A stretch of DNA of 64,000 nucleotides from assembly GCF_037971845.1 (NCBI RefSeq), contig NZ_CP150227.1, positions 3,906,001-3,970,000 of the forward strand, read 5' to 3'. The translations under genes were made by a program, and so were the position numbers. How positions within the stretch are numbered: the stretch's first letter is position 1; each line of letters opens with the position of its first letter. This stretch comes from Paenibacillus sp. FSL R5-0766 (GTDB lineage Bacteria > Bacillota > Bacilli > Paenibacillales > Paenibacillaceae). Under the pieces are notes generated by a model. That model searched no databases and was not told the DNA's origin. It saw nothing but the letters and a program-made list of their open reading frames with translations. This document shows, one piece after another, positions 3,013 through 19,288 of the stretch.

Positions 3013-3066
3013 GCAAGTTTCATCTATGATCTTCTAGAAAATATTTTAAAATGAGGTGTGATGATT

Positions 3067-3540
3067 ATGGCAATTGAAAAAGTAAAAGATTTTTTTAAAC
3101 AATATGGTATGGATTCTCAAATTATTGAATTTGAAGTATCTAGTGCAACCGTGGATTTGGCTGCATCTGCATTAGGTTGTGAGCCGGAGAGAATCGCAAA
3201 AACACTTTCTTTTATGGTGAATGGACAAGCTGTTTTAGTAGTTGCCGCCGGGGATGCAAAAGTGGATAACAAAAAATTCAAAGAGTATTTCAAAACAAAA
3301 GCAAAAATGCTTTCTCCTGAGGAAGCCATTGATATGGTTGGTCATGCCATTGGAGGTGTTTGTCCATTTGCTATCAAAAATGATGTTTCTGTTTATCTAG
3401 ACATATCTCTAAAACGTTTTGAGACAATCTATCCAGCTTGCGGGAGTAGCAATAGTGCTATTGAACTTACAATAAAACAATTAGAAAAATACTCTAGTTA
3501 TTCAGAGTGGATTGATGTATGTAAAGGATGGAATGATTGA
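3067..3540 (+). CDS. YbaK/EbsC family aminoacyl-tRNA deacylase
   Basis: 157 residues covering one YbaK/aminoacyl-tRNA editing domain. The family hydrolyses misacylated tRNAs (for example Cys-tRNA(Pro) or Ala-tRNA(Pro)) in trans. Visible marks are the conserved lysine in RIAKTLSF, the AAGDAKVD strand and the GHAIGGVCPFAI loop typical of the active site. Two ATG codons at 3061 and 3067 are possible; GAGGTG at 3053-3058 gives proper spacing only to 3067. It probably forms an operon with the XRE-cupin gene. Which mischarged tRNA is edited cannot be told from sequence; base composition is AT-rich like its partner. Confidence 0.88.
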   Translation: MAIEKVKDFFKQYGMDSQIIEFEVSSATVDLAASALGCEPERIAKTLSFMVNGQAVLVVAAGDAKVDNKKFKEYFKTKAKMLSPEEAIDMVGHAIGGVCPFAIKNDVSVYLDISLKRFETIYPACGSSNSAIELTIKQLEKYSSYSEWIDVCKGWND

Positions 3541-3559
3541 TTTATAGTAGTTCCTATGT

Positions 3560-3691
3560 GGGGTAGCGCCAACATTTTGACTGTTATATACACTAAGCAT
3601 CAGCGGACATTTGCTTAAAGCAGGAAAAATTCGCTGTCTTTGCGCCTTAACGTCCCTAGCGTATATTTTCGTTAAAATGTTGGCTGTACCC
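3560..3691. repeat. Imperfect long inverted repeat between convergent genes
   Basis: The arms at 3560-3591 and 3661-3691 are imperfect reverse complements: GCCAACATTTTGAC on the left pairs with GTTAAAATGTTGGC on the right, extending outward through GGGTAGC/GCTGTACCC and inward through the TATATAC/GTATAT segments. The element fills the gap between the YbaK gene and the convergent WG-repeat gene. It could act as a bidirectional terminator or be a mobile miniature element; no open frame is inside. Confidence 0.55.
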
Positions 3692-3695
3692 TCAA

Positions 3696-6203
3696 TCACT
3701 CATGGAAAGCTTTCCAGAACGAACCTTCTGTATTAATGATGTCCTTGATCTGGACAAAAGGAATCGTAAACGTTGGAAACCCTGCCGCATAGGGAGCGAT
3801 GTCATATGGATTGAAGTAGAGATGCAGAGCCTCCGCTGTGACAAAAAACGGCTGATCCGCACTAATCCCCGTATAGGTGTCCGGAAACACATACGAGTAT
3901 TGAGGATCGTTTTTGATCTGATCCCCCACAATCTGGCTTAACACTTTTACGTAGTCGCTATTCGGCTTAAATAAATCCTTCAGCTCATACAACTGACCAT
4001 TCGTCAGATTAATGATCGCATAGATCATCGTAGGCATACCATGCGCTGCACCTGCCGGGTAGTTATAACCTGTGAGTTGCAGTTGCAGCAATTGCTGCTG
4101 ATAAAACGTAATATCAAAATCCCCTGTATACGTGTAATCCAGCTGCTGATCCTCAGGAATCGGTTTAACCTGAGAGAGCTGCTTCAACTTGGCATTCAGC
4201 GCAAGCTGCTCCGCTTGGTTCGTTAATCCCTCCACCTGCGGATAATATACGAGGTAGTCCCTGTTTGGTTTGTACTTCTCTTCGCGTACACGGTACGGCC
4301 GATGAAGTGGAACGATTGTATTTTGCCGCCAGATGATCTGTCCGGCCCGATTCACATACGATAAGCGCTGATCTACATATGCCTTAATCAGATCTGGTGC
4401 CACGACCTCCAGCGTACCCGAACCTTCAACATGGGGATACCCAGCGGCAGGTCTTCCACTCAGATCCAGCAGATAGGTCTGTCTTCCATCCGATGCGGAA
4501 GCAAGGCCGTTTTTGTAATTGCCTACTTCGCGATATAGGAACTCCGTAAGCCTTCTACCGTTAGTATCTGCAATCGCGTATACAGAGCCAATATAAGGCT
4601 GCTCCGGATTAATTGCTTGCCCCAGCGCATAACGATGCTCGCCTAGTTCGCGGATGTCATTAAACGCGGGTTGAATGATAAACGATCCTTCCGTATTAAT
4701 GACACCGTAAATCGATTTGTAATCCTCAGCTGTATTAACGATCGCTTGGCCGCCGTTAAAAGGAAATGCCGATGAAAACTTAGGCTGAATACGAATATTA
4801 CCCCGTTCGTCGATGTACCCATATTTGCCCGATACTTCTTTTTGAAAAGCCAACAGCCCATCCCCTAGTGGTCCCACATAGGCATATGGATATGTTGCGA
4901 GCCGATGTCCATTGCGATTAATGAGTGCATATTCATTGTCCTTAATCTGCACAACTGCTTTGCCATCTTGAAAATCATTCGCCGAATCGAACTGTGCCGG
5001 AATCACCTCATTGCCCGACGCATCCAAATAACCATACCGACTCACCGATCCATCTGCCTGACCAGGATTTGAATCGTAAAACAACGCTCGGCCGTCGTTC
5101 ATATTCGAGATATACGGGTACGCCCGTTTGGTCAGAACCGTACCTTGTTCATTAATCATCTTAAATCCTTGAGAATCAATTGTTATTGCGCGTTCTTCGG
5201 AAAAGGAATTGATGGAATCGTATACAGGTTGAACGACATATTGCCCCTGAAGATTAATAACGCCGGCACGACCATCCTTCACAACCACAGCCAATCCATT
5301 GGGCTGAAACTCTTGCGCGTCATCCAGTACAGGCTCAAGCCGAATGTGCCCTTGGGCATCCATATACCCCCAACGCGTCCCAATCGTGGTTCGAACGGAG
5401 ACTGGATATAACCATGTTGCTACCCGGGCATGGCTTATAGGGACCATCGCCTGCTCAATTTTCTTTTCCAGCTCTTGTAATACTTCTCTGGAAGGATACG
5501 CTTCCGGGAAACTGAGTGCCTTCTGAACGGAAACGAGTGCTGCCGGATACTGGCCGGCATGGTACTGAGCATCCGCAAGGTAATACCAGTAAAAGATATA
5601 ATCAGGATATTGCTGGGTTAGTTGCTCGTAATATTGCACCACTTTGGGATAATAGGTTGCATATACGTCCGGTGCAGGAACCCATTTCCCATTCTGCCAT
5701 CGGATAATCTCCACACGATAGGCTTCCCCTGTATCATGAATCCAGAGTGCAATCTCCACCTTGCCATCTCGACCATGTGTACCAGGCATATCTATAATCT
5801 CTGCATAGCTATAATATAGATCGTGAGGCGCCAGATCTTTGAGCCCTGATTCAGTCCACTCATATACGGCAAGCTTAGACCAAATAGAACCAATCCGCCA
5901 ACCGATAATGAGATTGTTCCTTGCCGTTGAAGTTACAGGGGCAGCAGTCATTAAAGTCACCCCATACCCCAATCCCTTAATTAGTGCCATCTTGATCCAA
6001 TGCCCTTGAACAAATTTCAGAATGAGCAAATATAGCTCACCATTCAACTGATAGACTGCAGCAATCTCCGGCATGCCGTCACCGGTAAGATCTGCCGCAT
6101 AGATCGCTGGATGTTGAACAGGTTTATCAATAGTGACGACCGTTGCACCAGCCGGAATATGTTGATTCACAATTTGCGTTAACAGCGGTTCGCTCATGGA
6201 CAT
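3696..6203 (-). CDS. WG-repeat protein with C-terminal DUF3298-like domain
   Basis: 835 residues. The N-terminal part (about 30-170) resembles an FG-GAP/VCBS-type fold (ADLTGDGMPEIAAVY). Residues about 185-245 look like a TPR-type helical pair (YYLADAQYHAGQYPAALVSV). From about 275 to 600 come several WG-type repeats, recognisable by GYMDAQGHI, GVINLQGQYVVQP, GYLDASGNEVIPAQF and GYIDERGNIRIQPKF. The C-terminus (about 720-830) resembles DUF3298, found in extracytoplasmic sensors and PdaC/RsiV-type proteins. No clear signal peptide. The start has GGGAGGAAACTGAG upstream. It lies 97 bases behind the DUF4179 gene of a sigma-factor operon and is probably part of it; function unknown. Confidence 0.8.
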   Translation of the reverse strand: MSMSEPLLTQIVNQHIPAGATVVTIDKPVQHPAIYAADLTGDGMPEIAAVYQLNGELYLLILKFVQGHWIKMALIKGLGYGVTLMTAAPVTSTARNNLIIGWRIGSIWSKLAVYEWTESGLKDLAPHDLYYSYAEIIDMPGTHGRDGKVEIALWIHDTGEAYRVEIIRWQNGKWVPAPDVYATYYPKVVQYYEQLTQQYPDYIFYWYYLADAQYHAGQYPAALVSVQKALSFPEAYPSREVLQELEKKIEQAMVPISHARVATWLYPVSVRTTIGTRWGYMDAQGHIRLEPVLDDAQEFQPNGLAVVVKDGRAGVINLQGQYVVQPVYDSINSFSEERAITIDSQGFKMINEQGTVLTKRAYPYISNMNDGRALFYDSNPGQADGSVSRYGYLDASGNEVIPAQFDSANDFQDGKAVVQIKDNEYALINRNGHRLATYPYAYVGPLGDGLLAFQKEVSGKYGYIDERGNIRIQPKFSSAFPFNGGQAIVNTAEDYKSIYGVINTEGSFIIQPAFNDIRELGEHRYALGQAINPEQPYIGSVYAIADTNGRRLTEFLYREVGNYKNGLASASDGRQTYLLDLSGRPAAGYPHVEGSGTLEVVAPDLIKAYVDQRLSYVNRAGQIIWRQNTIVPLHRPYRVREEKYKPNRDYLVYYPQVEGLTNQAEQLALNAKLKQLSQVKPIPEDQQLDYTYTGDFDITFYQQQLLQLQLTGYNYPAGAAHGMPTMIYAIINLTNGQLYELKDLFKPNSDYVKVLSQIVGDQIKNDPQYSYVFPDTYTGISADQPFFVTAEALHLYFNPYDIAPYAAGFPTFTIPFVQIKDIINTEGSFWKAFHE

Positions 6204-6300
6204 CTCAGTTTCCTCCCTTATGACCGCATTCGCCTAATGGTATGCGTCATAAATCGGGATATGACATGTAATTCATTTTATATAAGTTTTACTATTTATA

Positions 6301-7716
6301 TTATCTATCTTGCAAAATCACTTTCTCTCCATTGATTAGCAGGTAGCTCACATCATTCACCGGAATGGTCTTAGGGGATATCCACTTAATGAGATCCTGA
6401 TCCAGCTGGAGGAAACCTGATGCAGCGGTTAATGTAGTCCCATCCTTCAGGTGTACTTCAATACTCAGATCCTCCATCCGAATCTTGCTAAGTGCCTCAC
6501 CTGTAAGTGTGACGCCAACCGAGGAAAGAGTAACATTTTCCAATGAGGCTCCATTTGCATCAAGCTGAACGTTTCCTGTTTTACTCAGACCATTTTGACT
6601 CAAGTTAAAGGTCGTTTTCCAATTTCCCCGCACAACTTCACTAATACTCGTAAAGCTGCCTTGAAGTCTCAGCTTATCTAATTCGTCAACAGAGGACAGA
6701 TTATACACATACTCAATGTAATCCCCACCAATGTCTACTCCATTTTTCATGTATCTCCCGTAGCTAATGGAATATTGGGGAATATCGAGCTTTTGACCTT
6801 GCTCATCCGTGAAGTAGAAATATCCATGATTATACTCGCCAATCTCATTATCCGGATTAATCTGAATGTGTAACTTGCCATCCACAAAACCCATATTGGA
6901 AATATGCACCCAATTAATACCCTCAACAGGGATATTCGTTACATCCTGATGCAATACCGGAATTGGATCGGTTTCCATTTGAATATCAATTTCACCTCCC
7001 CAGCCACTTATACGATCTCGATCCAGGATATCATAGCTATTGATTTGCTTTTCATGTAACAACTGCTCCCAGTCCACTTGTACGTTGTAACCATCTTGAA
7101 GAGATGTACCGGACATCAGCGTATTAATCTGAACGGTAATTCGATTTTTGCTCACTTTTCCTTGAATGAGAAATCGGACAATAGCCGTTTTATTAGCTTC
7201 ATCATAATGAATAATCTGAGCGTTGTTTGCATTACCTCCGGTGACCCTGTAATCATATACATCCAGCGTCTCGTCAATACGTTGACCCGTCAGATCTGAC
7301 AAAGAAACATAGATTTCCGTTGTATCTCCGTCCCTGACAGCACCTATAACCTCCATTCGAATCCCTTGATCTTCACTCACCTGATGAACAGGCTGAAGAA
7401 TGCCAATCCGATCTGCACCTAGAAAATGAAGAATAGAAGGCAGGTCAATGATGCCCACCGATGCAGCTGCACCTGTAACAAGACATAACGATAACGCAGC
7501 GGTTACAGGAATATAGATGGCTTTGCGATACCTTTTTCTTTTATTCATGGACTTCTTTGTCTGTGCAGATGGAGCGGATGGATATAATATAGGTGGTAAT
7601 AATGATGAATCTGATCTCGTAACGGTTGGTGGTTCATTCATGGCCAATTTATCATAGAACAACTTTTTAATATTAAAGAGGTTCTGCTCAGTGAATTCTT
7701 TGTCGGATTTTCGCAT
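6301..7716 (-). CDS. DUF4179 membrane protein, probable anti-sigma factor
   Basis: 471 residues. A basic N-terminal cytoplasmic region (about 1-65) is followed by one membrane segment (about 66-90, after the basic KKSMNKRKRYRK stretch) and a large extracytoplasmic domain with DUF4179-like features (LSDLTGQRIDETLDVYDY). Single-pass DUF4179 proteins typically sit directly behind an ECF sigma gene and act as its anti-sigma factor. Here the gene begins 13 bases after the sigma stop, with GGAGGCGATCC as ribosome binding site. The signal sensed is unknown. Confidence 0.82.
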   Translation of the reverse strand: MRKSDKEFTEQNLFNIKKLFYDKLAMNEPPTVTRSDSSLLPPILYPSAPSAQTKKSMNKRKRYRKAIYIPVTAALSLCLVTGAAASVGIIDLPSILHFLGADRIGILQPVHQVSEDQGIRMEVIGAVRDGDTTEIYVSLSDLTGQRIDETLDVYDYRVTGGNANNAQIIHYDEANKTAIVRFLIQGKVSKNRITVQINTLMSGTSLQDGYNVQVDWEQLLHEKQINSYDILDRDRISGWGGEIDIQMETDPIPVLHQDVTNIPVEGINWVHISNMGFVDGKLHIQINPDNEIGEYNHGYFYFTDEQGQKLDIPQYSISYGRYMKNGVDIGGDYIEYVYNLSSVDELDKLRLQGSFTSISEVVRGNWKTTFNLSQNGLSKTGNVQLDANGASLENVTLSSVGVTLTGEALSKIRMEDLSIEVHLKDGTTLTAASGFLQLDQDLIKWISPKTIPVNDVSYLLINGEKVILQDR

Positions 7717-7729
7717 TGGATCGCCTCCT

Positions 7730-8272
7730 TTATTTCCTGTTCATCCACCATGTCCTCAATCGTTGCCTGGAGCGATAAAGCTTGTTATGGACTTGCCTAA
7801 CGTGTAGGGACAATGCTTCCGATATCTCATGGGGTCTCTGTCCTTCGTAAAACCGACGTTTCATAATCTCCCGTTCAGGTTCTGGAAAAGATTCAATCAT
7901 TTGATTAAGTTCCGTATATGTCTCTTTACTGATCATCTGAACCAACAAATCATCCGTTTGCACCGAATGAATCTCCTCTTCATATGTAAGCTCAGTTCTT
8001 CGATTAAGTTTCCGGTAGCGATCAATCGCTTTATGTTTTGTGATCGTTGCAAGGTAATTTTTCAAGCTGCTTCGCCCAGATTGAAATGCATCCGGATTCT
8101 GCCAAAAAGCAAAAAATGTATCTGCTACACATTCTTCAATCTCTTCTACCGATGCATGATGTAGGATGGAATGAGCAATCTTCCATAACAAACCTGCGTA
8201 GTGGTTCATCACCCATTCCATGGCTTCAGGATCACGATTTACTACTGCCTTCCGTATTTGTTCTTCTTCCAC
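7730..8272 (-). CDS. ECF-type RNA polymerase sigma factor
   Basis: 180 residues, the usual ECF length. Sigma region 2 spans about residues 10-85 (YAGLLWKIAHSILHH, then ECVADTFFAFWQNPDAF, a region 2.2-like core-binding helix, and KNYLATITKHKAIDRYRK). Region 4 is at about 115-175 (FPEPEREIMKRRFYEGQRPHEIS plus a recognition helix). It should direct RNA polymerase to a small regulon, probably including its own operon with the DUF4179 and WG-repeat genes behind it. Promoter specificity cannot be read here. Confidence 0.9.
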   Translation of the reverse strand: MEEEQIRKAVVNRDPEAMEWVMNHYAGLLWKIAHSILHHASVEEIEECVADTFFAFWQNPDAFQSGRSSLKNYLATITKHKAIDRYRKLNRRTELTYEEEIHSVQTDDLLVQMISKETYTELNQMIESFPEPEREIMKRRFYEGQRPHEISEALSLHVRQVHNKLYRSRQRLRTWWMNRK

Positions 8273-8375
8273 GATTATGTATCCCTCCCTTCCATGCTCA
8301 TATCACGAATGCTCGTATTGATCCGTGCTACCTACCTATATTCGTTTAACAAATGACTTTTACTTACTCCACGAT

Positions 8376-8417
8376 AAAAAAAGATTTGCAGTGACCTTGT
8401 GGCCTTCTGCAAATCTT
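8376..8417 (-). terminator. Rho-independent terminator of the MoxR-vWA operon
   Basis: Stem arms AGATTTGCAG and CTGCAAATCT enclose a 15-base loop; read on the minus strand the stem is followed by a run of T. It lies downstream of the small gene ending at 8493, closing the six-gene operon. Confidence 0.8.
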
Positions 8418-8492
8418 CTCATCTTCTATAATACATCTTATTTACTACATCATATCGCTCTCATGGGTCTTCGCTTGGAATACTAACCAATA

Positions 8493-8789
8493 TTACGCCT
8501 CTTCTTGCACACTCAATTGTACATATTGGGTGAGACGACAATACTGAAATAACAGCAACTCTTCATTACCTTGTCCAAGAGCCACGCTACGCCCTTCCTT
8601 GATGAGGTGATTCAACAACTCATGCAGGAAACTCATCTGCAACCGCAAGGATTCCGCTGTGAGCTGCTCAAGTACCTCAATATCCCGGATCGTAAACTGA
8701 GATAACCCACGCAGGAGCAACTCTTCTGACCAGCCGTTAATTCTCTGCATGAACTGATTATATTCTTCCAAGTCTGCCCATCCTCCCAT
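8493..8789 (-). CDS. Small protein at the end of the MoxR-vWA operon
   Basis: 98 residues, predicted largely helical and acidic, with no cysteine/histidine metal motif and no membrane segment. I do not recognise the family. Its start overlaps the end of the SWIM gene by 32 bases, so the two are probably co-translated. Being last in a tight six-gene operon and followed directly by a terminator, it is probably an accessory subunit of the MoxR/vWA system, but nothing in the sequence gives a role. Confidence 0.7.
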   Translation of the reverse strand: MGGWADLEEYNQFMQRINGWSEELLLRGLSQFTIRDIEVLEQLTAESLRLQMSFLHELLNHLIKEGRSVALGQGNEELLLFQYCRLTQYVQLSVQEEA

Positions 8790-10590
8790 TACCGATATCC
8801 AGTTTCAGACTGAGCACCGTTTGACCCTTCAGGAAACTGATTGGGCTAATCCGTTTTGGTTCCACACGCACAAAGGCATAGAAGTGTTCAAGCGATTGGG
8901 AACCATATCCTGACTCCAGTCTTTGGATCATCGCCTGCCAGTCAGATGAATATGGGAGAGTGAGTGCCAGTCTTTCCCCTTCGGTATTCTCAACCGTCAG
9001 GACAAGCTCCTGCGTTTGTTTGACAAAGTTATGGTCCACGATTCGAGCAACTTTGATCACAACCAATCGTTCTTTGGGAGCAGCAAACAAGTCGAACGAT
9101 CGCGATTCCTCTTGAAGTACAGTCGTTACATCTTGCATGGTTTTGCCCAGATTCAACGTTTCCACACTCGTTCGTGGCAAAATAGCAAGTTTGGCACCTT
9201 CCCCGGAAGATATCCGGCGTTCTTCATTCACTTTAACGGAATGGAATTGAACTTCTTCGCCCACGAACTGGCGAAAGGTCAGATTAGGCAACCATGGTGT
9301 GAATGCACCATAATGCTCTGTATATGAGAACTGCTGATCATCATAATATACAGCACGTACATCGCTATAGGTGTAGATTTCCTCATCATCGAAACAATAG
9401 AAATAATAGGTGATTCCACGGAAACCGGATCGTGTCTCCCACGCATCAGCTCCCAGTCCATACAGGTGAAGTGAAGGAACCGTAAAGTATTTACTTCGAA
9501 AACTGCCAATGAGCTGACTCTGCTGAATGACAGACACCTGTTCTTCTTCAAGAACCCGGAGTGCAAGATACAGCTTGCTTACCCGATCCAACATGGATTG
9601 CATGGAGAAACGTATATGTCTGTTAAAAAACAACTGTAGTTCTCCTTGAATCCCTCGCAGACTACGTTCTATATCAGGCAGGTTGCCACTATGAGCTGCA
9701 ATTGCCAAAGTCTCCAGTTGTGCCATATAGGACTGAGGAAGGCGGGCCAGTCCCGTCTTCAACAATCCTGCCAGCATAACCCGACATTCCTGCACTGTCT
9801 GAAGAGAGAACTCGGCCTCGTACACCCGTCCACTTAATGCATCCGTATCATCCAGGCCTTTTAAGTTCCGGTACCGTAGCAGAGCTTCAAGCTTGGCCAT
9901 TTTCCCAGCAGTCTGCTGCACCTTACATAGTGCTTTGGCAAGGTTCGGTTCCTCAGTAAAAGACACCTCGATATTCTGGGTGGTCAGATGAACCGTAAGA
10001 AGTGAATCTTCAATGATCTTAATTTCCTCTGGGTACCTCAGTCGGAAAACAACTTCCTCAATCATGGAAGAACTATACGATTTAATTAACACAGTAAGGT
10101 CAGACTCCGTCATCCAGCGGAAGCGAGACTCGATCTCACGAGAAACTGAATGCGGATTTTCGCTTGAATCATCCACGTTTGATACTAAGTTTGATGCTGA
10201 TTCTGTTACTGATACGTTTTTTGGTACGTCCAACGGATTATTATCCGGTATCCCTGAGCCCTTATCCAGCGCATGCTTATCGTCTGTATTCATTGAATCC
10301 TCTGCCGTATATTCACGTTGATCATACAGAATTGCAATCAGCACATGCTTGCAGATATGATCGGCCGGGCAGGAGCATTCCCAATGATCTAGTGTATTCT
10401 CAAGCGTACATTGTGTCCCGTCACTGAGCTGACAACTCACAGATGATGCATTCCATGTGTACGATACACTTACACCATTGTCCAACTCCTTCAAAGACCT
10501 TTTGTACAACCCCTTGTTGGCATACCGGATCAGATAATCCTCCGTACACAGCTTCGAAAAAATCCGGAATTTTTCCTTGAATCCACTCAC
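8758..10590 (-). CDS. SWIM zinc-finger protein (YehQ-like)
   Basis: 610 residues. A SWIM zinc finger lies at about residues 70-85: ECSC followed by CKH gives the C-x-C...C-x-H ligand set. SWIM domains bind nucleic acid or protein partners. The rest (about 150-600) is a long region without a motif I recognise. It starts 4 bases after the DUF4132 gene and overlaps the small downstream gene. In E. coli the yehQ product is also a SWIM protein encoded beside MoxR (YehL) and vWA (YehP) genes, so I infer the same system; its biochemical role is unknown. Confidence 0.82.
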   Translation of the reverse strand: MSGFKEKFRIFSKLCTEDYLIRYANKGLYKRSLKELDNGVSVSYTWNASSVSCQLSDGTQCTLENTLDHWECSCPADHICKHVLIAILYDQREYTAEDSMNTDDKHALDKGSGIPDNNPLDVPKNVSVTESASNLVSNVDDSSENPHSVSREIESRFRWMTESDLTVLIKSYSSSMIEEVVFRLRYPEEIKIIEDSLLTVHLTTQNIEVSFTEEPNLAKALCKVQQTAGKMAKLEALLRYRNLKGLDDTDALSGRVYEAEFSLQTVQECRVMLAGLLKTGLARLPQSYMAQLETLAIAAHSGNLPDIERSLRGIQGELQLFFNRHIRFSMQSMLDRVSKLYLALRVLEEEQVSVIQQSQLIGSFRSKYFTVPSLHLYGLGADAWETRSGFRGITYYFYCFDDEEIYTYSDVRAVYYDDQQFSYTEHYGAFTPWLPNLTFRQFVGEEVQFHSVKVNEERRISSGEGAKLAILPRTSVETLNLGKTMQDVTTVLQEESRSFDLFAAPKERLVVIKVARIVDHNFVKQTQELVLTVENTEGERLALTLPYSSDWQAMIQRLESGYGSQSLEHFYAFVRVEPKRISPISFLKGQTVLSLKLDIGNGRMGRLGRI

Positions 10591-10594
10591 GTCA

Positions 10595-13500
10595 TCAACG
10601 CCCCGTTGCTCTCAGAATGTCGTAGATCGTTTCACTGAACACGCGACCTGGAACGTTGCCTAGAGCAATGGATTTGTTGTCACCATAGTAATAATATTGC
10701 TTGTTATTCGGTTTGAAGAAATGAAGGGATTCCAGGGTAATGTCATCCAATCCCTCGTAATACGTGATGCTCGTACCACTGAACTGCAATTCCGCAACAA
10801 GATCTCCGTACTCTTTATAAAATTCATGATACCAGCCGCCGTCCTGAGCCGGTCCTTTGATCCAACCGTATTTCTCCAGTGCTTTGGGGAAAGCCGTTGG
10901 TGAAAAATCAGACTCGGGCAGATGATCGTATTCATTCTTCGTTTTATCCTCATCTTCTGGCTGGTGAATCTCACGATTTAATTGCTCGAATGGCTGCTTG
11001 ATCTCGTAATCCTCCAACTGCGTTGTCCAACCTTCAAGTGTCACCTGATCCAGCTCCAACGGGTGTATAAGTCCGACTTGTGCACCTGAAGGCAGATCAA
11101 CCTCGTCTTCATCCACGGAATTGAAGGTGCCGTCCTCCATATAACGGAACGTGCTGATTAATGCGCCATCCTCATACGTTCCCCAGATCAGACCAACAGC
11201 AAATTTCTGCATGATTACATTTTGTACAAACAGGGCTTTCCACTCATCGGCAGACCACAGACGTTGCTTGGACAATGACTCTTCCAGACGCTGCGCCTGA
11301 ATGTTAACCATGGATTTGAGATCTTTTTTCAGCTGTGTGAAACGTGCCTTGGACTGCGCTGCCAATTCAGGATCATCTTTCTGTGCAGGAGCAGGCAGAC
11401 TCTTCACAGATTTGCCTGTTTCTTCATTTAAGACAACGACTTGTAAGTCCCCATTGACCTTAACAAGGAAGGAACGCTCTCCGTAACTCAGCTGCATGGT
11501 TCCTTTTTCATCAAAACCAAGCGTGGTGACTAACCGATCTTCGAGTTGTTCCGAGGTAAGCCCCATATTATCGGCTGCAAGCTGCAACGCTTCTTCTGCT
11601 GCACCTTTCACCTGACGGTTCTTCACGCCACATTTGATTTTATCAATCGCCATAAGAGCGGATGGATCTTTCAGATAAGCGAGCACTTTTACAGCATCTG
11701 CTGCAATCGCGCCACGGCTATTCTCTGTCCATTCCTTAATTTGCGGAGCCAGAATATTCACAATCTGAATATCGCCAAAGAGTGCTGAAACATACATCAC
11801 CCACTTTTCTTTCGCGGGGGCACCTTCTTGAATCCAGACCTGAAGCAATTCACTTGCAAAACGAGCGAGCGATGCCTCACTTACGTAATCTCGTAATTCA
11901 TTCAACCGTTCATTAGGACCGGATGTATGATCCAATGATTGGACCAAAGCATACTGTTTAATCCGGTCATCTAAAGGCTGATTGTCTTCAATACGTATCA
12001 GTGAAGTGAGATCTTTCAAGGACAACCAGCTCAGTCTCGACAACTTTTTGGCATCCGCCTGATCAGCGAGTGCAGCATGGGCATACTCTGGACTTAGATC
12101 TGCGGTATCCAGCAGAATTTGGATCAAGCTCTTCCACTCATCGGACTTCTCTTTTTTCAAAAGCTCACCATACAGCTCCTTGCTGTTTTCCAAACTGCGG
12201 ATCGCGGTCAAAGCCATCTCTTTGATCGCCACTTTTTTCTCCGAGAGGTATACGAGCGTATACAAGTCCTGATCAGGAATACGGTTGAATTCCGCTAACG
12301 CCACGCCGTTGGCCTTTTTGGAAGAATCCTGCAGTCCGGCACGAATCGCTTCAGCCAATATTTTCTTCGATAACTCATCACGCTGTTCAAAGGTAATCTC
12401 CAGAATTAAAATGCGTGTATCTGTTGGCAGTTTCTTGTACTGTGTCAGTGCATAGTCCAGATTCTGCTGAATGATTCGGCGGTATTCGTCATGCGGCATC
12501 GATTTGTATCTGTAGTCGGTCATGCCATTGAGTGAGATCAGGCTGGTTAGCAATTTCTCACGTTGCACCTCAGGATCTTGCCCATAACGTTGAAGTAGCT
12601 GCTCTCCACTAAACGCGTATGAATTGTACATGTCCGAGATAATATCCAGTGTCCAATCGGGATGAGTGGTCAGGATTGCGAACCTGCGCATCGCCTCCGA
12701 ATCCAAGGGCAGAAAACTAATACTAATGAGGTTGTGAACACGCTTCTTATCCCGATTCAATTGATTAAACAACCCGCGACTACTCGGGTCCTCCCAGTAT
12801 TCCTCCAGGGTGTTTTCCCCACTTAAGTATCGTGCAATCGCAAGTCCTTGACGTCCCCCGTCCAAAGGATGCCGAAGAGCGTTAAATACCGCTTGCTCCA
12901 GTGACCCCTCCGCATTAGGCAATGTCAATCCTTGATCCTCCATGAATTTCTGAATGCAGAGTTTGAGGAATGGCGGTTTGATAATCTCGTATGCTCGAAT
13001 CGCTTGTTCAGGACGATTCGCGATCGCGGATTGTAACATGTTCCAAGATACCGTGTACGAATTAAGCTCGTCCCGCAACATTTCAACCAACTGATAAGGT
13101 TCATCCAGAGGCACAAGTCCAGCAAGCAGATCATTTGGACTCTTGGCTCTAGGGTCCATACTCAGCAAGTAACGGCGAACTTCAAGTGGATAAATCTCAT
13201 GTAATTGATGTACTGTGTGAAGCAAAACATGCCCAATCTCACTATTTGTATCAAGGAACCGTTGTTTACCTCCACTAATGTTAATCAGGTACAACAAGGC
13301 ACCACTCACAAGTATCATAGTTTGATGGAATACTGTGTTTGAACATTGCTCTTTTGAAGAGAAAGACGTATTGGGATACAGTTCAGCTATGAGCTGACTA
13401 CGCTTCTCCTTGAGGAATTCATCCTTCAATTCTTGGGAAGATCCGTTATGTTTTCCTTGAATATTACTGACCACTACAGGTTCAATCAACGTATGTAGCT

Positions 13501-14152
13501 CGTCTCGCAACTTATCTGCATCATTAGCCATCACATGTTGAAACAACACTGGTAACGATTGAACAGAAGATTGAACCTCTGCAAGATGAGAAGCCGTGTC
13601 ACTGAGTCTTGAATATAGTTGCAGCAGCATTAATGCATTAATTACATCCCGGTAATCCCCTTGACTGTCCGCTTTTTTGGAATCAAAAAGCCACTGGGCA
13701 CGCTTTAATTTACTCTTTAATTCAGTCAAAATTTCGTTCTCGCCTGCAAACTGTTTGATCTTCTCCAACCGAGACAACAATCCATCCATGCGATCAGCGC
13801 TTTTGCTCTTCCCGCTTAATCCGTAAGCTTCGGAATCATTTCCCATACAGACAGTAAAGGCATCCGTTCTCCATGAATTTCTTTTGGAATAATTGGATTC
13901 CAGATATATCACAATAGCCCCGGCACGGTAAAAGATATCTCCATCGTCTTTTTTGGCAAGCTTCATGAGCAGATCAATCGTTTGATACACATAATGACTC
14001 GAATTTCCCATCATATCCGGGAACTTGTCTGTCGTTCCCAAGACGTAATCGATAATTTCGGAGCTGCGATCTGTTTTTAATGAATACTCGTTTGAACAAG
14101 TTACTGCGAATTTCTCCACCAAAGTTTCAACTGCGCGGTCTGCGGTAAGCAT
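10595..14152 (-). CDS. DUF4132 protein (YehI/MolR-like), large scaffold-type protein
   Basis: 1185 residues. Most of it is a long helical, repeat-like region reminiscent of HEAT/ARM repeats (for example AAQTLEELQ-type helices around KDPSALMAIDKIKCGVK and AAEEALQLAADNM). The C-terminal ~250 residues carry DUF4132 marks: FAVGLIWGTYEDG, a LEDYEIKQPFEQLNREI core and YGWIKGP. I use the ATG at 14152, with AAGGAGG 8 bases upstream, instead of a TTG at 14191. It fits between the vWA gene and the SWIM gene. E. coli YehI and MolR are DUF4132 proteins of similar length near the yehLMPQ genes. Molecular function unknown. Confidence 0.82.
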   Translation of the reverse strand: MLTADRAVETLVEKFAVTCSNEYSLKTDRSSEIIDYVLGTTDKFPDMMGNSSHYVYQTIDLLMKLAKKDDGDIFYRAGAIVIYLESNYSKRNSWRTDAFTVCMGNDSEAYGLSGKSKSADRMDGLLSRLEKIKQFAGENEILTELKSKLKRAQWLFDSKKADSQGDYRDVINALMLLQLYSRLSDTASHLAEVQSSVQSLPVLFQHVMANDADKLRDELHTLIEPVVVSNIQGKHNGSSQELKDEFLKEKRSQLIAELYPNTSFSSKEQCSNTVFHQTMILVSGALLYLINISGGKQRFLDTNSEIGHVLLHTVHQLHEIYPLEVRRYLLSMDPRAKSPNDLLAGLVPLDEPYQLVEMLRDELNSYTVSWNMLQSAIANRPEQAIRAYEIIKPPFLKLCIQKFMEDQGLTLPNAEGSLEQAVFNALRHPLDGGRQGLAIARYLSGENTLEEYWEDPSSRGLFNQLNRDKKRVHNLISISFLPLDSEAMRRFAILTTHPDWTLDIISDMYNSYAFSGEQLLQRYGQDPEVQREKLLTSLISLNGMTDYRYKSMPHDEYRRIIQQNLDYALTQYKKLPTDTRILILEITFEQRDELSKKILAEAIRAGLQDSSKKANGVALAEFNRIPDQDLYTLVYLSEKKVAIKEMALTAIRSLENSKELYGELLKKEKSDEWKSLIQILLDTADLSPEYAHAALADQADAKKLSRLSWLSLKDLTSLIRIEDNQPLDDRIKQYALVQSLDHTSGPNERLNELRDYVSEASLARFASELLQVWIQEGAPAKEKWVMYVSALFGDIQIVNILAPQIKEWTENSRGAIAADAVKVLAYLKDPSALMAIDKIKCGVKNRQVKGAAEEALQLAADNMGLTSEQLEDRLVTTLGFDEKGTMQLSYGERSFLVKVNGDLQVVVLNEETGKSVKSLPAPAQKDDPELAAQSKARFTQLKKDLKSMVNIQAQRLEESLSKQRLWSADEWKALFVQNVIMQKFAVGLIWGTYEDGALISTFRYMEDGTFNSVDEDEVDLPSGAQVGLIHPLELDQVTLEGWTTQLEDYEIKQPFEQLNREIHQPEDEDKTKNEYDHLPESDFSPTAFPKALEKYGWIKGPAQDGGWYHEFYKEYGDLVAELQFSGTSITYYEGLDDITLESLHFFKPNNKQYYYYGDNKSIALGNVPGRVFSETIYDILRATGR

Positions 14153-14171
14153 TACACATTCCTCCTTGAAT

Positions 14172-15395
14172 TTAAGTGATGATCTCGCCAATCCAATCCG
14201 CGAGTTCGTTAGGCGTAATTGCGGCTACATGTGCGCCCATATTCGTTAACGTCTGTGCGGCATGTTTGTTATAGACTGAATCCCCGTTAAAATCGAGCGC
14301 GGTGAGAACCAGTAGCTTGCATCCTGTATCGATGATATCTTTACAGGCTTTGTACATCTGCGCAATCGGGTACCCTTCCTCCAGATCACTGACCAGAATA
14401 AAGATGGTTTTGCCTGGATTATCGATTAACGTCTCGCCATAACGCAACGCTTTCGTAATATGTGTGCCCCCGCCAAGCTGTACATTCATGAGCACGTCTA
14501 CGGGGTCTTCCAGTCTGTCGCTCAGATCAACAACCTGCGTATCAAATATGAATAATTGGGTGCGTAGCGCATTCAAGCGATAGAAGATGCTGGCCATCAC
14601 CGAACTGTAGATGACTGAATCCAGCATACTGCCACTCTCGTCCACACCAATGATGATGTTCCACTTGTTATGGGGCTGGATATTCCCGTCGAAATACAGA
14701 CGATCAATTACAAACCTGCGCTTGTTTTTATCGTAATTCTTCAAATTTTTGGTGATAGTTCGCTTGAAATTCAGATTGCGCAAAGATCGTACTGAACTCG
14801 AGGTATAGCGACTGCGCTTGCCCATGATACTCGCTCGGGTCTGAGATTCCAGCTTACTACGCAGCTCTTCAACCACGGTTCGCACGATATCCTTGGCGCT
14901 CTTTAATACCTCACCTTTCATCCGTCCTTTGAACTGCATAATATTCTTGAGCAGATTCATGTTGGGTTCAAGGGATTCAAGCAGCTTTTTGTCCGTTAAC
15001 AATTCTGTCAGCCCATAACGATCAAGCGCCTGTTTCTCCAATATTTCGACCGTTGGTTTGGGGAATAGGTCCCTGACTTTGTGCAGCCATTTTGGTACAG
15101 TCAAGTTAGACGCACCGCGTCCTCCCTCTTTTCGGTAACCTTGTTCTTCACCGTATTCACGGTTATAGAGATACCCCAAAATCTCATCGATTTCCGTATA
15201 TTGAAATTCAGCCGAAGTGTATTGGTCTGTATTACACAACCCTTCTTCGGCTGATTCACCGAGAATGAGACGCCATCGATTTAAAGTTTCAGCAGGCTGT
15301 TGATCCCCTCGGTTGCTTCCATCTGGATTGGAAGTTTCATCTATTTCTCCGATTTCTTCCGTTGTCCGATTCGCTTTATTCATATTAGCTTCCAT
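14172..15395 (-). CDS. von Willebrand factor A domain protein (YehP/CoxE-like)
   Basis: 407 residues. A charged N-terminal half (about 1-235) is followed by a vWA domain with a complete MIDAS site: DESGS (about residue 252), the threonine of GGGTHITKAL, and the aspartate of LVSDLEEG. vWA proteins paired with MoxR ATPases act as metal-dependent adaptors that hand substrates to the ATPase. The ATG at 15395 has AAAGGAG 8 bases upstream and overlaps the DUF5682 stop by 16 bases; an earlier in-frame start at 15428 lacks a site. Likely partner of the MoxR protein encoded two genes upstream. Confidence 0.88.
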   Translation of the reverse strand: MEANMNKANRTTEEIGEIDETSNPDGSNRGDQQPAETLNRWRLILGESAEEGLCNTDQYTSAEFQYTEIDEILGYLYNREYGEEQGYRKEGGRGASNLTVPKWLHKVRDLFPKPTVEILEKQALDRYGLTELLTDKKLLESLEPNMNLLKNIMQFKGRMKGEVLKSAKDIVRTVVEELRSKLESQTRASIMGKRSRYTSSSVRSLRNLNFKRTITKNLKNYDKNKRRFVIDRLYFDGNIQPHNKWNIIIGVDESGSMLDSVIYSSVMASIFYRLNALRTQLFIFDTQVVDLSDRLEDPVDVLMNVQLGGGTHITKALRYGETLIDNPGKTIFILVSDLEEGYPIAQMYKACKDIIDTGCKLLVLTALDFNGDSVYNKHAAQTLTNMGAHVAAITPNELADWIGEIIT

Positions 15396-17848
15396 GCGGC
15401 AAACTCCTTTCGAAGCGCTTCGTCCCATGCTTTGGACTGGATCAGCATCTGCTCATCCACCGCAGGCCTTAACATCTCCTCTGGTTCAACCTGATGCAGA
15501 CTCGCCACCCGTTCAGCAATCAAGCCCGTCTCCATTGGTGTGAAGTAGGTGAATGCCAGCCTTAATTCCGGTACCATGCTGATGAAATCCTCGTATGACA
15601 GCTGTTCAATCAGATAATTCAACTCGGACAAGAGCTGATCTTCATATAAAAAAGCGTCACGTGCTACAGTGAATACTCCCTGTAAAAAAAGTGCCGTTTG
15701 ACGGGTCTGATCCGGTGTACCATGGATATACCCGCGAGCACGATCAACAATCTCATCCCTGGGCCTGTCACCGAGCCCTGAGGAAATAGCCACACACACA
15801 CCCTCCAGCTGAGCCGGAAGCTGGTGATCAGACAGAAGCTCATTCAGATGTATTCGGAATGTCTCATCCTGAAAATCCCCCTCTGATGACTCCGCGAGCA
15901 TAGCTAAAAGCTTCAATCCCTGAATAATGGCTTCATGTTCATCCGGATTGGCTCTGGAGAGCTGTAACAACTTGTCTACGGCATTCCTGTAAGCCTCGGA
16001 TACTAGCTCAGGGAGTTGTTGCTCGTCAGATAGTCCCAGTAGCCTGCGGTGCTGATGAATTCGGTTCAAGACATGCAGACTGTTACATAAGGAAAGGAAA
16101 TTCCCGTCGGTTCTCAGCGCTGAGCGCACCTGTTCATAAAGTTTCATCGCTGTGTCCTGAAGTCCCATGAGCAGCGCTTGAAGCATGAGTCGGGCAAGTT
16201 CACCGCTATGATGATCCGGTACTTCCTGCATCTGTTCTTCCATTTTGCGTGTAGCCGCCCTGGCAAGTGTTCCACCATAGAGAGAGTTCTCTATCAATCT
16301 GGCTTCAATGCGAGATGAGTACATGTAAACCCAGGTTTCGCGAACAAGATTCATATCATGCTCTGCAATCCAGTCCGGCCCCGATTGCCGTTTCGCGAAT
16401 TCCGGAACCAGATAGGTGATGCATTGAATCAATTGGCTTATCTGACGATGCTCCGGTTTCGCATACAGATCCAGCACTTTCTTGTGTTGACCTGTTGTAC
16501 GAATCTGCAGTTTGTACTCTGTACAACGCGCCTTGAAGTCCTCCACGATGGGAATACTGAATGAATTGGGAGCCACGCTTCCAATGACGTCTCCTGTCAA
16601 TAACTGCTGCAGCTCTTGCAGCGGTTTATCAGTCGCCAAGGTAAGCTCACCCTTCACAAAGGAAGAGAGTGCTGCATCCATCAACTCATAGACGCCGCCT
16701 TCCCTTTTACCACGAAGCCCGGCAAGACCTTGAATCATGCTGTACGCCTCAATTGCATCACTCGTTGATACATGCTCGTGTCCATCCCTTAATTGGCGCA
16801 TCAGCCGAGATAACAAGTCCAGAGCCGTTAGATTATACGGTGTACTCTTTTTGCGAAGCAGCTGGTTCCAGATCTGATCGTAATAATTTACATAAGGCAT
16901 GCCGCTCGCATATCCATTGAGCCGATCCGCTTCAGCAAAGGTATAGACCATTGGGTACATTTGTTGGTGAACCGTATCTGGATTAACCGCACTTTGTTGA
17001 GACGTTCCTGGTTTACCTTGTCCATCCAAACGTTGGTCTGTATGTCGTTTATTCATTTCTGGCTGTTCCAATTCCGATTCATGTTTCTCTGACACCAACA
17101 GTCCATACGTATGAAACCCACCGGTAATGACAAGCACACGGTCATGCTCCTGCACCGCTTGTTGAATACGTTGTCTCATATGTGCTTCTCTTGCCAGATC
17201 ACCTGAAGACTGTAATCGTTCCGTGGAATAACACATTCGGGATAAAGTACAATACGTGAATACATCCTGCACGAATGCCCGAGTGGATTTTTCCAGACCA
17301 CCAATTTCAAACACCTTTTCCCACAATTCATCAAAACTGCGACAGTTTGTTTTTTGGCATAATCGGTTAATGAAATCAGACCCCGCAAGCAAGGTTTCGT
17401 CCTGAATGGAGATCTCCTTTTGTTCTGTCTGGCCGGATTTGGATGCACGAGTGGAGAAGTGTTGATAGTCCAAATCAATAAACTTCGCCGGAATGTCCAG
17501 CCGTTTTGCTTCTTTCAAAGCTACATATTCAGGCGAATACCGAAGCATCGGATAATAGCAGGCTTCTCTCTCCAATTCACTCTCATAGGTATAGTACAGA
17601 CTGACAGGAGGTATCGTTGCCTCATCACTCAGCACCGAAATTAATGGATTACCGCTCTCCGGTCCTTCGATTAGAATGATATCCGGCTTGTACTCCCCGA
17701 TTAATCGTAACAAGTGATACGAACATGCAGGGCTGTGGTGTCTAATAGGATAATAAACCGTATGATTACTCAGGTTATATACCTGGGACTCGAACAAGCA
17801 TTGTAACTGCTCAACATCAGGGTCCAGAACTGCTGTTAACCGATCCAT
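15380..17848 (-). CDS. DUF5682 family protein (YehM-like)
   Basis: 822 residues. The N-terminal ~260 residues carry DUF5682 marks: VYYPIRHHSPACSYHLL, KPDIILIEGPESGNPL and a late ITGGFHTYGLLV. The conserved HHSPA, EGP and GGFHT signatures resemble the TraB/ChaN-like fold and hint at an active or metal-binding site. The C-terminal two thirds are helical and of unknown role. It overlaps the MoxR stop by 13 bases and the vWA start by 16 bases, so all three are almost certainly co-expressed and probably stoichiometric partners. Function not established to my knowledge. Confidence 0.8.
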   Translation of the reverse strand: MDRLTAVLDPDVEQLQCLFESQVYNLSNHTVYYPIRHHSPACSYHLLRLIGEYKPDIILIEGPESGNPLISVLSDEATIPPVSLYYTYESELEREACYYPMLRYSPEYVALKEAKRLDIPAKFIDLDYQHFSTRASKSGQTEQKEISIQDETLLAGSDFINRLCQKTNCRSFDELWEKVFEIGGLEKSTRAFVQDVFTYCTLSRMCYSTERLQSSGDLAREAHMRQRIQQAVQEHDRVLVITGGFHTYGLLVSEKHESELEQPEMNKRHTDQRLDGQGKPGTSQQSAVNPDTVHQQMYPMVYTFAEADRLNGYASGMPYVNYYDQIWNQLLRKKSTPYNLTALDLLSRLMRQLRDGHEHVSTSDAIEAYSMIQGLAGLRGKREGGVYELMDAALSSFVKGELTLATDKPLQELQQLLTGDVIGSVAPNSFSIPIVEDFKARCTEYKLQIRTTGQHKKVLDLYAKPEHRQISQLIQCITYLVPEFAKRQSGPDWIAEHDMNLVRETWVYMYSSRIEARLIENSLYGGTLARAATRKMEEQMQEVPDHHSGELARLMLQALLMGLQDTAMKLYEQVRSALRTDGNFLSLCNSLHVLNRIHQHRRLLGLSDEQQLPELVSEAYRNAVDKLLQLSRANPDEHEAIIQGLKLLAMLAESSEGDFQDETFRIHLNELLSDHQLPAQLEGVCVAISSGLGDRPRDEIVDRARGYIHGTPDQTRQTALFLQGVFTVARDAFLYEDQLLSELNYLIEQLSYEDFISMVPELRLAFTYFTPMETGLIAERVASLHQVEPEEMLRPAVDEQMLIQSKAWDEALRKEFAAWKLI

Positions 17849-18936
17849 TTTCTCTCCTCATAATAGTCCTTCCACATTCCCTCTTCTCTGGAACGCTCTT
17901 TTACGACCTTGGAGAAATAGGTTTTGAGAATGGACAGATCCTTGTCGTTTTCCTTTGCAATGGTGCCCAGCATGTTCTGCACCAACCGATCCAGTGCAAT
18001 AGCCTTATCTTCGTAATAATAGGAAGTCATCGCACTCTGGACATAGACAGACACCGCTTCCGCTGTACTCATGGATGTTTGAGGGGTATCGAGCTTGTAT
18101 CCTTCCCGTGTCATGCCGGTGCGCAGTTCCATAAATGTTGTAGCCAGTAATTCAACCACATCAGGGTTAATGTCAATATCAATTCCACTATGTAATAACA
18201 GGCTTCGTGCCTGGGATTCAATAATTTTGGCTTCCATCTTCACGTTATGAATGGGCTTGATCGTTTCAAAATTGAACCGACGTTTCAATGCACCACTCAT
18301 TTCGTTAACACCTTTATCCCGAATATTAGCTGTAGCAATGACGTTAAATCCTGGTTGAGCAAACAGTACACCACCATCCAGTTCAGGAATGCTCATGACC
18401 TTGTCACTGAGAATACTGATCAGACTATCCTGCGCTTCCGCGGGACAACGTGTAATCTCTTCAAAACGGGTAAGAATACCTTTCTTCATTCCGTTATATA
18501 ACGGTGATGGTACAAGCGCAGCTTCCGAAGGGCCTTTATCGAGCAACATGGCGTAATTCCAAGAATACTTGATCATATCTTCTGTCGTGCCTGCTGTACC
18601 TTGAATCGTATTCAGACTGGTTCCGGAGATTGCTGCGGTCAGCAGTTCGCTCAGCATAGTTTTGGCTGTCCCGGGTTCTCCCACGAGCATTAATCCTCGA
18701 TTGCCTGCCAGAGTAACCACTGCACGTTCAATTAACACGTCATTGCCATAGAATTTGCGGGTAATCGGGATCTCTTCTCCATTCAATGATGCAGGCTTAT
18801 CCCTGCCTATAATAAAATCGCGCACATAGGCGGGAGATAACAGCCAGTTCGGAGGACGTTTCCCCTGATCTTCCTCTCGAAGCGCACGTAATTCAACCTC
18901 GTATAATGTCTCGGCGGGTGGTTTGAGCATCTCCAT
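17836..18936 (-). CDS. MoxR-family AAA+ ATPase (YehL-like)
   Basis: 366 residues with the ATG at 18936 (AGAGGAGAC upstream). Walker A is GEPGTAKT at about 86-93. The Walker B region reads ILTRFEEITR, with Glu-Glu where Asp-Glu is usual. Sensor 1 is VIATANIRDKG and the arginine finger/sensor region is GALKRRF. MoxR ATPases remodel or activate partner proteins together with vWA adaptors; the vWA gene is two genes downstream. It is first in the six-gene operon, so its promoter should lie in 18937-19250. Whether this ATPase serves stress, cofactor insertion or a defence role is unknown. Confidence 0.9.
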   Translation of the reverse strand: MEMLKPPAETLYEVELRALREEDQGKRPPNWLLSPAYVRDFIIGRDKPASLNGEEIPITRKFYGNDVLIERAVVTLAGNRGLMLVGEPGTAKTMLSELLTAAISGTSLNTIQGTAGTTEDMIKYSWNYAMLLDKGPSEAALVPSPLYNGMKKGILTRFEEITRCPAEAQDSLISILSDKVMSIPELDGGVLFAQPGFNVIATANIRDKGVNEMSGALKRRFNFETIKPIHNVKMEAKIIESQARSLLLHSGIDIDINPDVVELLATTFMELRTGMTREGYKLDTPQTSMSTAEAVSVYVQSAMTSYYYEDKAIALDRLVQNMLGTIAKENDKDLSILKTYFSKVVKERSREEGMWKDYYEERKWIG

Positions 18937-19251
18937 CGTCAAGGTGTCTCCTCTCAATTAAACAGATCGTATGTTCTTATTCCTATCATTTTATCACAGC
19001 CCTCGAACAACTACCCGGTAAAACGATAAAAATGGTTGAAACGTCCTTCTTATCAGCACTCTTCCTAAGTCCATGGACATAGCCTCTAGCGCAAGTATGA
19101 AGATAAAACATCCTTACAGCCGTGCCAACACACTGGTTGCGGATCCGAATCAGCATGCTTATTACCCATGTAAACGCATTGTAGGCCATATGACCTCAGG
19201 ATTCATTAAACTTTCGATCATGTGTTTCAACCAAATGAAGCTGAATATTAC
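18937..19251. other. Intergenic region upstream of the MoxR operon
   Basis: This gap should hold the minus-strand promoter of the six-gene operon. I see a TAAAAT-like -10 near 18990 but no convincing -35 partner, no palindromic operator and no supported open frame. Short frames on both strands lack ribosome binding sites. Confidence 0.4.
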
Positions 19252-19288
19252 AAAGAAAACACAGGCCATTAGCAGCCTGTGTTTTCTT
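19252..19288 (-). terminator. Terminator after the aldo/keto reductase gene
   Basis: Arms AAAACACAGGC and GCCTGTGTTTT enclose the loop CATTAGCA, with T-rich flanks on both strands. It follows the aldo/keto reductase on the minus strand and insulates the MoxR operon. Confidence 0.85.

Follow-up and report, generated by a model that had tools for sequence, protein, structure and literature searches.

YehL is listed as one of seven subfamilies of MoxR ATPases (PMC3893208). In Escherichia coli K-12 it is encoded in the yeh locus (yehI-yehK-yehL-yehM-yehP-yehQ), where the genome record labels yehK and yehM as "uncharacterized" and yehL only as a "putative" ATPase. The families DUF5682, DUF4132 and DUF5691 carry only unknown-function names, and DUF5682 is named in no paper found by a literature search for DUF5682 or DUF4132. 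Here we describe a yeh-type operon of Paenibacillus sp. FSL R5-0766 (assembly GCF_037971845.1, contig NZ_CP150227.1), whose genome is a single contig of 7.0 Mb. The operon occupies positions 8493–18936 of a stretch of 64,000 nucleotides, further referred to as the window. Our tentative reading, to which we give somewhat less than an even chance, is that it encodes one protein machine, an ATP-dependent peptidase or a motor-switched protease, probably used under stress.

Six minus-strand genes with overlaps or gaps of a few bases had been claimed by the initial annotation, and the listing of open reading frames (ORFs) in the window confirmed them. When the longest ORFs are taken, with ATG used for DUF4132, three junctions are overlaps (13, 49 and 32 bases) and two are gaps (19 and 4 bases). 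The genes, in the order of transcription, are as follows.

17836..18957, minus strand: MoxR-type AAA+ ATPase, YehL subfamily (likelier starts are TTG at 18942 or ATG at 18936)
15380..17848, minus strand: DUF5682 protein, YehM homologue (predicted N-terminal TIKI-like domain, C-terminal half mostly helical)
14172..15428, minus strand: vWA (VWA_CoxE) protein, YehP homologue, with intact MIDAS
10595..14191, minus strand: DUF4132 protein, YehI homologue (1185 residues from the ATG at 14152)
8758..10590, minus strand: SWIM zinc-finger protein, YehQ homologue
8493..8789, minus strand: 98-residue protein, sixth component (a start giving 92 residues is also possible)

The suggested kinship with the E. 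coli yeh locus holds for the five large proteins. In BLASTP searches against E. coli K-12, the MoxR protein matched YehL (48% identity, E 2.9e-111), the DUF5682 protein YehM (25%, E 4.9e-37), the vWA protein YehP (41%, E 3.2e-102), the DUF4132 protein YehI (30% across 421 C-terminal residues, E 9.5e-52), and the SWIM protein YehQ (35% across 79 residues, E 1.5e-9). In both loci the five homologues are clustered, in the window on one strand, and the core order MoxR, DUF5682, vWA, SWIM is identical. Unlike the window, the E. coli locus has DUF4132 before MoxR and contains the gene yehF and the pseudogene yehH with DUF4132-like pieces. No homologue of the 98-residue protein was found at the E. 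coli locus.

Association of the gene families and the conflict question

Using DUF5682, 79 distinct loci were fetched from genome contigs. As they represent only the best 80 of 480 relatives, the sample leans to close kin. MoxR is present in all 79 loci, vWA in 78, SWIM in 76, and DUF4132 in 75; the small protein is counted in 74, by an iterated profile that could drift and with fused cases scoring down to 19.5 bits. All five large families occur together in 75 loci and all six in 73. Four loci are short of at least one large family: two of them (L067, L070) are short contigs, a third (L064) stops 4 kb past DUF5682, and the fourth (L074) contains only MoxR and DUF5682 despite 10 kb on either side. 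The core order is constant and the position of DUF4132 varies. It follows vWA in Paenibacillus and others, SWIM in Lachnospiraceae and some Clostridium, and DUF5682 in two Rhizobiaceae plasmids; it precedes MoxR in some Clostridium, one Bacillaceae, one Lachnospiraceae, and E. coli. Since gene content and core order recur in dozens of species, a chance arrangement is excluded.

Thus the families are stably associated, and their independent occurrence in most genomes, which the initial annotation had named as the outcome that would speak against a common system, was not seen in the genus. DUF5682 was found in 22 of 36 same-genus genomes (own included); a short DUF4132 protein is encoded on the DUF5682 contig in each of these 22 and is absent from the remaining 14. 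The DUF4132 domain also occurs elsewhere: a long DUF4132 protein is encoded in 8 of the 14 genomes lacking DUF5682. Among 299 Bacillota genomes, five (own included) score above the DUF5682 cut-off and seven at E 0.001. Plasmid and mislabelled chromosome records with DUF5682, 31 in total and all below 60% identity, extend the range to Pseudomonadota, Actinomycetota, Deinococcota, Fusobacteriota and Bacteroidota.

In L042 (CP094668) several operon genes are in pieces, in L080 DUF5682 is split in two, and in L065 vWA is interrupted by approximately 2.5 kb. About 2.6 and 4.2 kb of extra DNA lie inside the operon in L078 and L077, respectively, between DUF5682 and vWA or between vWA and SWIM. On an E. 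coli plasmid (L093, NZ_CP103756), the yeh cluster and its chromosomal neighbors are placed between IS26 copies, adjoining resistance genes.

A role in conflict response had been suggested for the operon. On this view it would be an anti-phage or other conflict system, broadly comparable to the MoxR-vWA ternary systems, and DUF5682 would be its effector, cleaving host or invader proteins. Its patchy spread (5 of 299 Bacillota and 22 of 36 genus genomes) agrees with such a role, as do several plasmid copies, one of them adjoining type I restriction genes. Moreover, MoxR-vWA modules drive conflict systems, and the MoxR-vWA-VMAP systems share with the operon the energised MoxR and vWA switch (PMC7159879). 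However, the operon differs from these in that no VMAP family is among the Pfam hits of its six proteins, in a Pfam copy whose VMAP model content is unchecked, and its MoxR protein scores 19.9 bits against the bpMoxR model, under the cut-off of 27; the word YehL is absent from PMC7159879. PADLOC 2.0 gave one weak match in the window (PDC-S24, E 4.3e-4), inside DUF4132, and no match for seven proteins of relatives. The chromosomal place is conserved in the close Paenibacillus group, where 27 loci keep at least one of seven flanking proteins in place. Phage or virus origin was considered as well: none of 19 pattern matches in viral contigs was confirmed as a relative. An unverified "Bacteriophage sp." record containing DUF5682, MoxR and vWA (L096, MT835988) is probably bacterial DNA, since MgsA and DUF5717 genes are present in it as well. 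A conflict role finds no support here and appears to us quite unlikely.

The probable motor proteins and the predicted TIKI-like domain

The MoxR protein belongs to Pfam AAA_5 (4.9e-35), and its closest kin is YehL in a comparison confined to the E. coli cluster. Motif counts for MoxR, vWA and SWIM relatives were filtered by protein length. The Walker A motif GEPGTAK[TS] is present in 88 of 93 MoxR relatives. Walker B reads [FL]EE in 89 of the 93, that is, with Glu-Glu instead of the Asp-Glu usual in AAA+ proteins. The vWA protein matches Pfam VWA_CoxE (1.1e-41). The DxSxS part of its metal ion-dependent adhesion site (MIDAS) is kept in 91 of 91 vWA proteins of 350–480 residues, in line with the earlier claim that the site is intact; the pattern for the third MIDAS Asp is found in 82 of them, and the Thr was identified visually, for the window protein alone. 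That MoxR and vWA act as motor and adaptor follows by analogy from what is known of the families (PMC9976466), in which NorD needs an intact MIDAS.

The protein that this motor would serve is the DUF5682 protein (Pfam 1.9e-93). Its predicted model has a predicted local distance difference test (pLDDT) score of 87.3. The best structural matches of the model are three Tetrahymena complex IV chains, which we take to be the TraB-family subunit of that complex, and a weaker match is the TIKI protein HopBA1. The corresponding features of the window are listed below; each of the four residues is found in 95 of 95 sequences.

16844..17791, minus strand: predicted TIKI-like domain of DUF5682, approximately residues 20–335 (VIA-align matches to residues 1–263 and strands in the model; boundaries approximate)
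17738..17740, minus strand: His37, first GX2H-like motif ([GP][IV]RH)
17666..17668, minus strand: Glu61 (LIEGP)
17189..17191, minus strand: Arg220 (RExxM)
17111..17113, minus strand: His246, second GX2H motif (GGFH)

The alignment was made of ORFs of 700–1000 residues, leaving out the broken or over-long L041, L042 and L080. The conserved pattern is [GP][IV]RH, LIEGP, RExxM, GGxH, and Arg36, His37, Glu61, Glu107, Asp125, Arg220, Glu221, Met224, Gly243 and His246 are invariant in all 95 sequences, which come from both kinds of system (see below). In the TIKI endopeptidase RRSP, activity requires H3902, E3930, H4030, E3900 and R4001 (PMC6254334). Four of these, H3902, E3930, H4030 and R4001, are matched in DUF5682 by order and spacing, not by superposition: the His-Glu distance is 24 in DUF5682 versus 28 in RRSP, and the Arg-His distance is 26 versus 29.

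Several observations limit this assignment. RRSP E3900 has no counterpart, as position 35 of DUF5682 is occupied by I (57 sequences), V (37) or L (1) among the 95; hence the 2His/2Glu arrangement of Ere and RRSP, with a Glu two residues before the first His, is not seen in DUF5682. Comparison with TraB by hhalign gave a non-significant E of 0.024 for the narrow profile (25 sequences of relatives), although it aligned Arg220–His246 with a similar stretch of TraB. Other profile comparisons yielded E from 0.18 to 0.57, all TIKI-family sequence matches were sub-threshold, and the whole-chain Foldseek test was not significant.

These inconclusive fold tests and the missing Glu would fit a different picture, in which DUF5682 is a TIKI-fold pseudoenzyme or does not have this fold, and the gene set encodes an assembly around DUF4132 that has a structural role or signals DNA damage. 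Some TIKI-fold proteins lack the motif (PMC6254334), and the Deinococcus DUF4132 protein DRA0166, a possible relative of the short DUF4132 type, rises with mitomycin C in an IrrE-dependent manner (PMC8533742). Yet invariance of four candidate active-site residues in 95 sequences from several phyla would be unusual for a dead enzyme, and we regard this picture as distinctly improbable. Assignment of DUF5682 to TIKI is made with good confidence; given the fold, peptidase activity is slightly favored. We treat DUF5682 as a probable peptidase coupled to the MoxR-vWA motor.

The same motor could instead belong to a dedicated maturation chaperone, in which a single client enzyme is remodelled by MoxR and vWA, for instance for metal or cofactor insertion, and DUF5682 does not cut a protein but binds or handles a cofactor. 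NorQD of nitric oxide reductase provides the model, and MoxR proteins are thought to mature or activate specific complexes (PMC3893208; PMC9976466). The name of E. coli molR refers to molybdate use (a reference title in PMC7824862), ChaN, which has a related fold, binds haem (PMC7979712), and in the genome studied here a second, long DUF4132 gene directly follows a molybdopterin oxidoreductase gene. On the other hand, the seven flanking proteins recur only in the close Paenibacillus group, bar three stray matches (no wider search for client genes was made), and the invariant His-Glu-Arg-His set of DUF5682 suits hydrolysis. We consider a chaperone of this kind unlikely.

The small protein and the large partner

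Two features of the SWIM protein are listed next.

10345..10377, minus strand: SWIM motif CSCPADHICKH, read from the sequence
9571..9810, minus strand: middle region of the SWIM protein (approximately residues 261–340) resembling the 98-residue family by hhalign

All 77 SWIM proteins with lengths of 500–800 residues have the pattern CxCxnCxH within their N-terminal 160 residues; against the Pfam SWIM model the window protein scores 13.2 bits, under the cut-off of 19.6.

The initial annotation considered the 98-residue protein not obviously part of the E. coli set; it does belong to the system. A plain phmmer search yielded stand-alone homologues in 54 loci, counting the window, the weakest with E 6.5e-7. 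The non-iterated seed model built from these 54 added eight stand-alone genes from Clostridia and relatives, as well as five cases fused to the C-terminus of longer SWIM proteins with E from 7.4e-7 to 0.016, values that sum two matches, to the middle and to the end of the same SWIM protein. The best of them are L077 (7.4e-7), L078 (1.7e-5) and L084 (0.0014). With the iterated profile, stand-alone genes are seen in 64 of the 79 loci and fused ones only in 10 more. Given this recurrence, stand-alone or fused to SWIM, the small protein is a true component of the system. It may be a duplicated domain of the SWIM protein: hhalign with residues 261–340 yielded probability 78.5 and E 1.7e-5 for the wide profile, and probability 14.1 and E 0.0019 for the narrow one. 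A Paenibacillus-only accessory was suggested by 56 direct-search matches, the named ones all from Paenibacillus; it was rejected because the neighborhoods show Brevibacillus and Clostridium copies and the SWIM fusions.

The DUF4132 protein (Pfam 2.4e-48) has a predicted model with pLDDT 87.3 and predicted TM-score (pTM) 0.62, helical to approximately residue 873 and followed by an alpha/beta part. This long helical protein could be a scaffold; the model is compatible with this role, which had been proposed earlier.

Further 17 records were examined, 12 of them from 32 plasmid and phage matches (31 and 1, respectively), and five from genome loci. MoxR and vWA are in the same cluster as DUF5682 in all 17, the vWA gene of L092 being in pieces. 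DUF4132 is present in seven (L088, L089, L093, L094, L097, L098, L104) and a DUF5691 protein in four (from a Pfam match in L087 and L091 and from the annotation in L090 and L092). The large-partner position is occupied by a HEAT-repeat protein (2.3e-8) in L099, by a protein without Pfam match in L095, and by genes of similar size, of unscanned family, in L100 and L103; in L101 it falls in a gap outside the survey. In the phage-labelled L096 neither a large partner nor a SWIM gene was seen. The large partner is exchangeable: it is DUF4132 in the window, and DUF5691 or a HEAT-repeat protein elsewhere. The DUF5691-type clusters (Deinococcus, Rhizobium, Methylosinus, Hymenobacter) and the Bacilli HEAT-type cluster share MoxR, DUF5682, vWA and, usually, SWIM with the operon, and differ from it in having a DUF5691 or HEAT-repeat protein in place of DUF4132. 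Approximately 500 extra N-terminal residues of the Hymenobacter DUF5691 protein are taken to be a putative SWIM part.

The long DUF4132 gene mentioned above lies at 2880–10790 of another stretch of the same genome (L102, C1:1013000-1032000) and encodes a 1662-residue DUF5724-DUF4132-DUF7737 protein. Profiles of the operon families found no member in this 19-kb stretch.

Possible upstream control and the proposed machine

Two elements precede the operon, and two terminator-like structures flank it.

18965..18976, minus strand: conserved operator-like element GAACRTAYGATC
18988..18998, minus strand: possible extended −10 promoter element TGTGATAAAAT, judged from upstream sequences
8376..8415, minus strand: terminator-like stem-loop and T run, 3' of the operon
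19256..19285, minus strand: terminator-like stem-loop upstream of the operon, after an aldo-keto-reductase-like gene

The element GAACRTAYGATC lies just upstream of MoxR, behind the likely extended −10 element, in 43 of the 79 loci and in the window, the pattern having been defined on the same upstream sequences in which it was counted. Ten of its twelve positions are invariant in 16 chosen, more diverged upstream sequences, whose flanks average 50–55% identity. The 43 loci (1.9 Mb, both strands) contain 44 occurrences, 43 of them at the operon site. Apart from one record titled Neobacillus mesonae, they come from Paenibacillus and Saccharibacillus; upstream of the Brevibacillus, Aneurinibacillus and Clostridia loci and of L059 (Paenibacillaceae) the element is absent. 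Upstream of MoxR, Brevibacillus loci L047, L048, L050–L053 and L061 have another shared stretch, in some of them with an inverted repeat like GGGTACAAATACCC. In the whole genome there are six exact matches of GAACRTAYGATC. One is that of the operon, two are within ORFs, one is in an ORF end 117 bases before the next gene, and the remaining two are not followed, over 260 bases, by the start of any ORF of at least 60 codons.

GAACRTAYGATC differs from GAACN4GTTC by one mismatch. Upstream of lexA in the same genome are two exact sites of this form and three with one mismatch; recA is preceded by CGAACATACATTCG, which is identical in its first half to the window's element. The mismatch of GAACRTAYGATC to GAACN4GTTC is conserved, which argues for caution on LexA control. 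A simple box of the Bacillus subtilis type, CGAACRNRYGTTYG, was rejected: it has no exact match in the 7.0-Mb genome, versus four per strand for the reversed control pattern, and at two mismatches it turned up in 6 of 80 upstream stretches, which does not exceed the background (0.16 per stretch). In E. coli, a one-mismatch SOS box lies just before yehF (L002:1450) and is presumably the molR one; as these 27 kb contain ten such sites, it is not significant alone. MolR is described as a member of the LexA regulon in PMC8533742, the source of the DRA0166 response noted above. Taken together, DNA-damage control of the operon seems to us almost evenly balanced, with a slight lean against it.

As to the claimed terminators on both sides, both stem-loops are seen by eye, but a consensus terminator scan listed neither, and so both rest on this visual reading. 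Adjoining the operon, at 6301–8272 of the window, are two neighboring genes that only some close relatives have at this place; one of them, sigma-factor-like as judged by eye, was found in 12 of 27.

In the proposed machine, the products would assemble into a physical complex. The MoxR ring (YehL) would hydrolyse ATP and act via the vWA protein, whose MIDAS metal site would grip the target. The SWIM protein and its small partner, with the long helical DUF4132 protein, would select or hold this target, and the TIKI-type hydrolase domain of DUF5682 would cleave it once remodelled, most likely at a peptide bond. Such a machine would probably be used under stress such as DNA damage. In its most specific form the proposal is a DNA-damage-inducible ATP-dependent proteolytic machine of an undescribed kind, where MoxR and vWA deliver targets chosen by SWIM and helical-repeat proteins to a TIKI peptidase, and the recognition arm (DUF4132, DUF5691 or HEAT) is exchangeable; with all these particulars together it is doubtful. 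The TIKI-type reading of DUF5682 singles out four residues for mutation and defines an assay, and it places a probable peptidase in the same cellular operon as a MoxR-vWA motor. The small protein, the exchangeable partner and the upstream element each yield a concrete test.

The operon shares with NorQ/NorD, CbbQ/CbbO and RavA/ViaA a MoxR ring and a vWA partner; neither a TIKI-like enzyme nor a SWIM protein nor a large helical partner is known in those systems. With the TIKI superfamily (TraB, ChaN, Ere, RRSP), DUF5682 shares a probable core fold and the His, Glu, Arg, His pattern, and it differs in its long helical C-terminal half, its operon with an AAA+ motor, and the lack of the second Glu. 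The system itself is already known by the E. coli gene names; the present analysis adds a TIKI interpretation of DUF5682, the small protein as a sixth member, the exchange of the large partner, and an element conserved ahead of MoxR.

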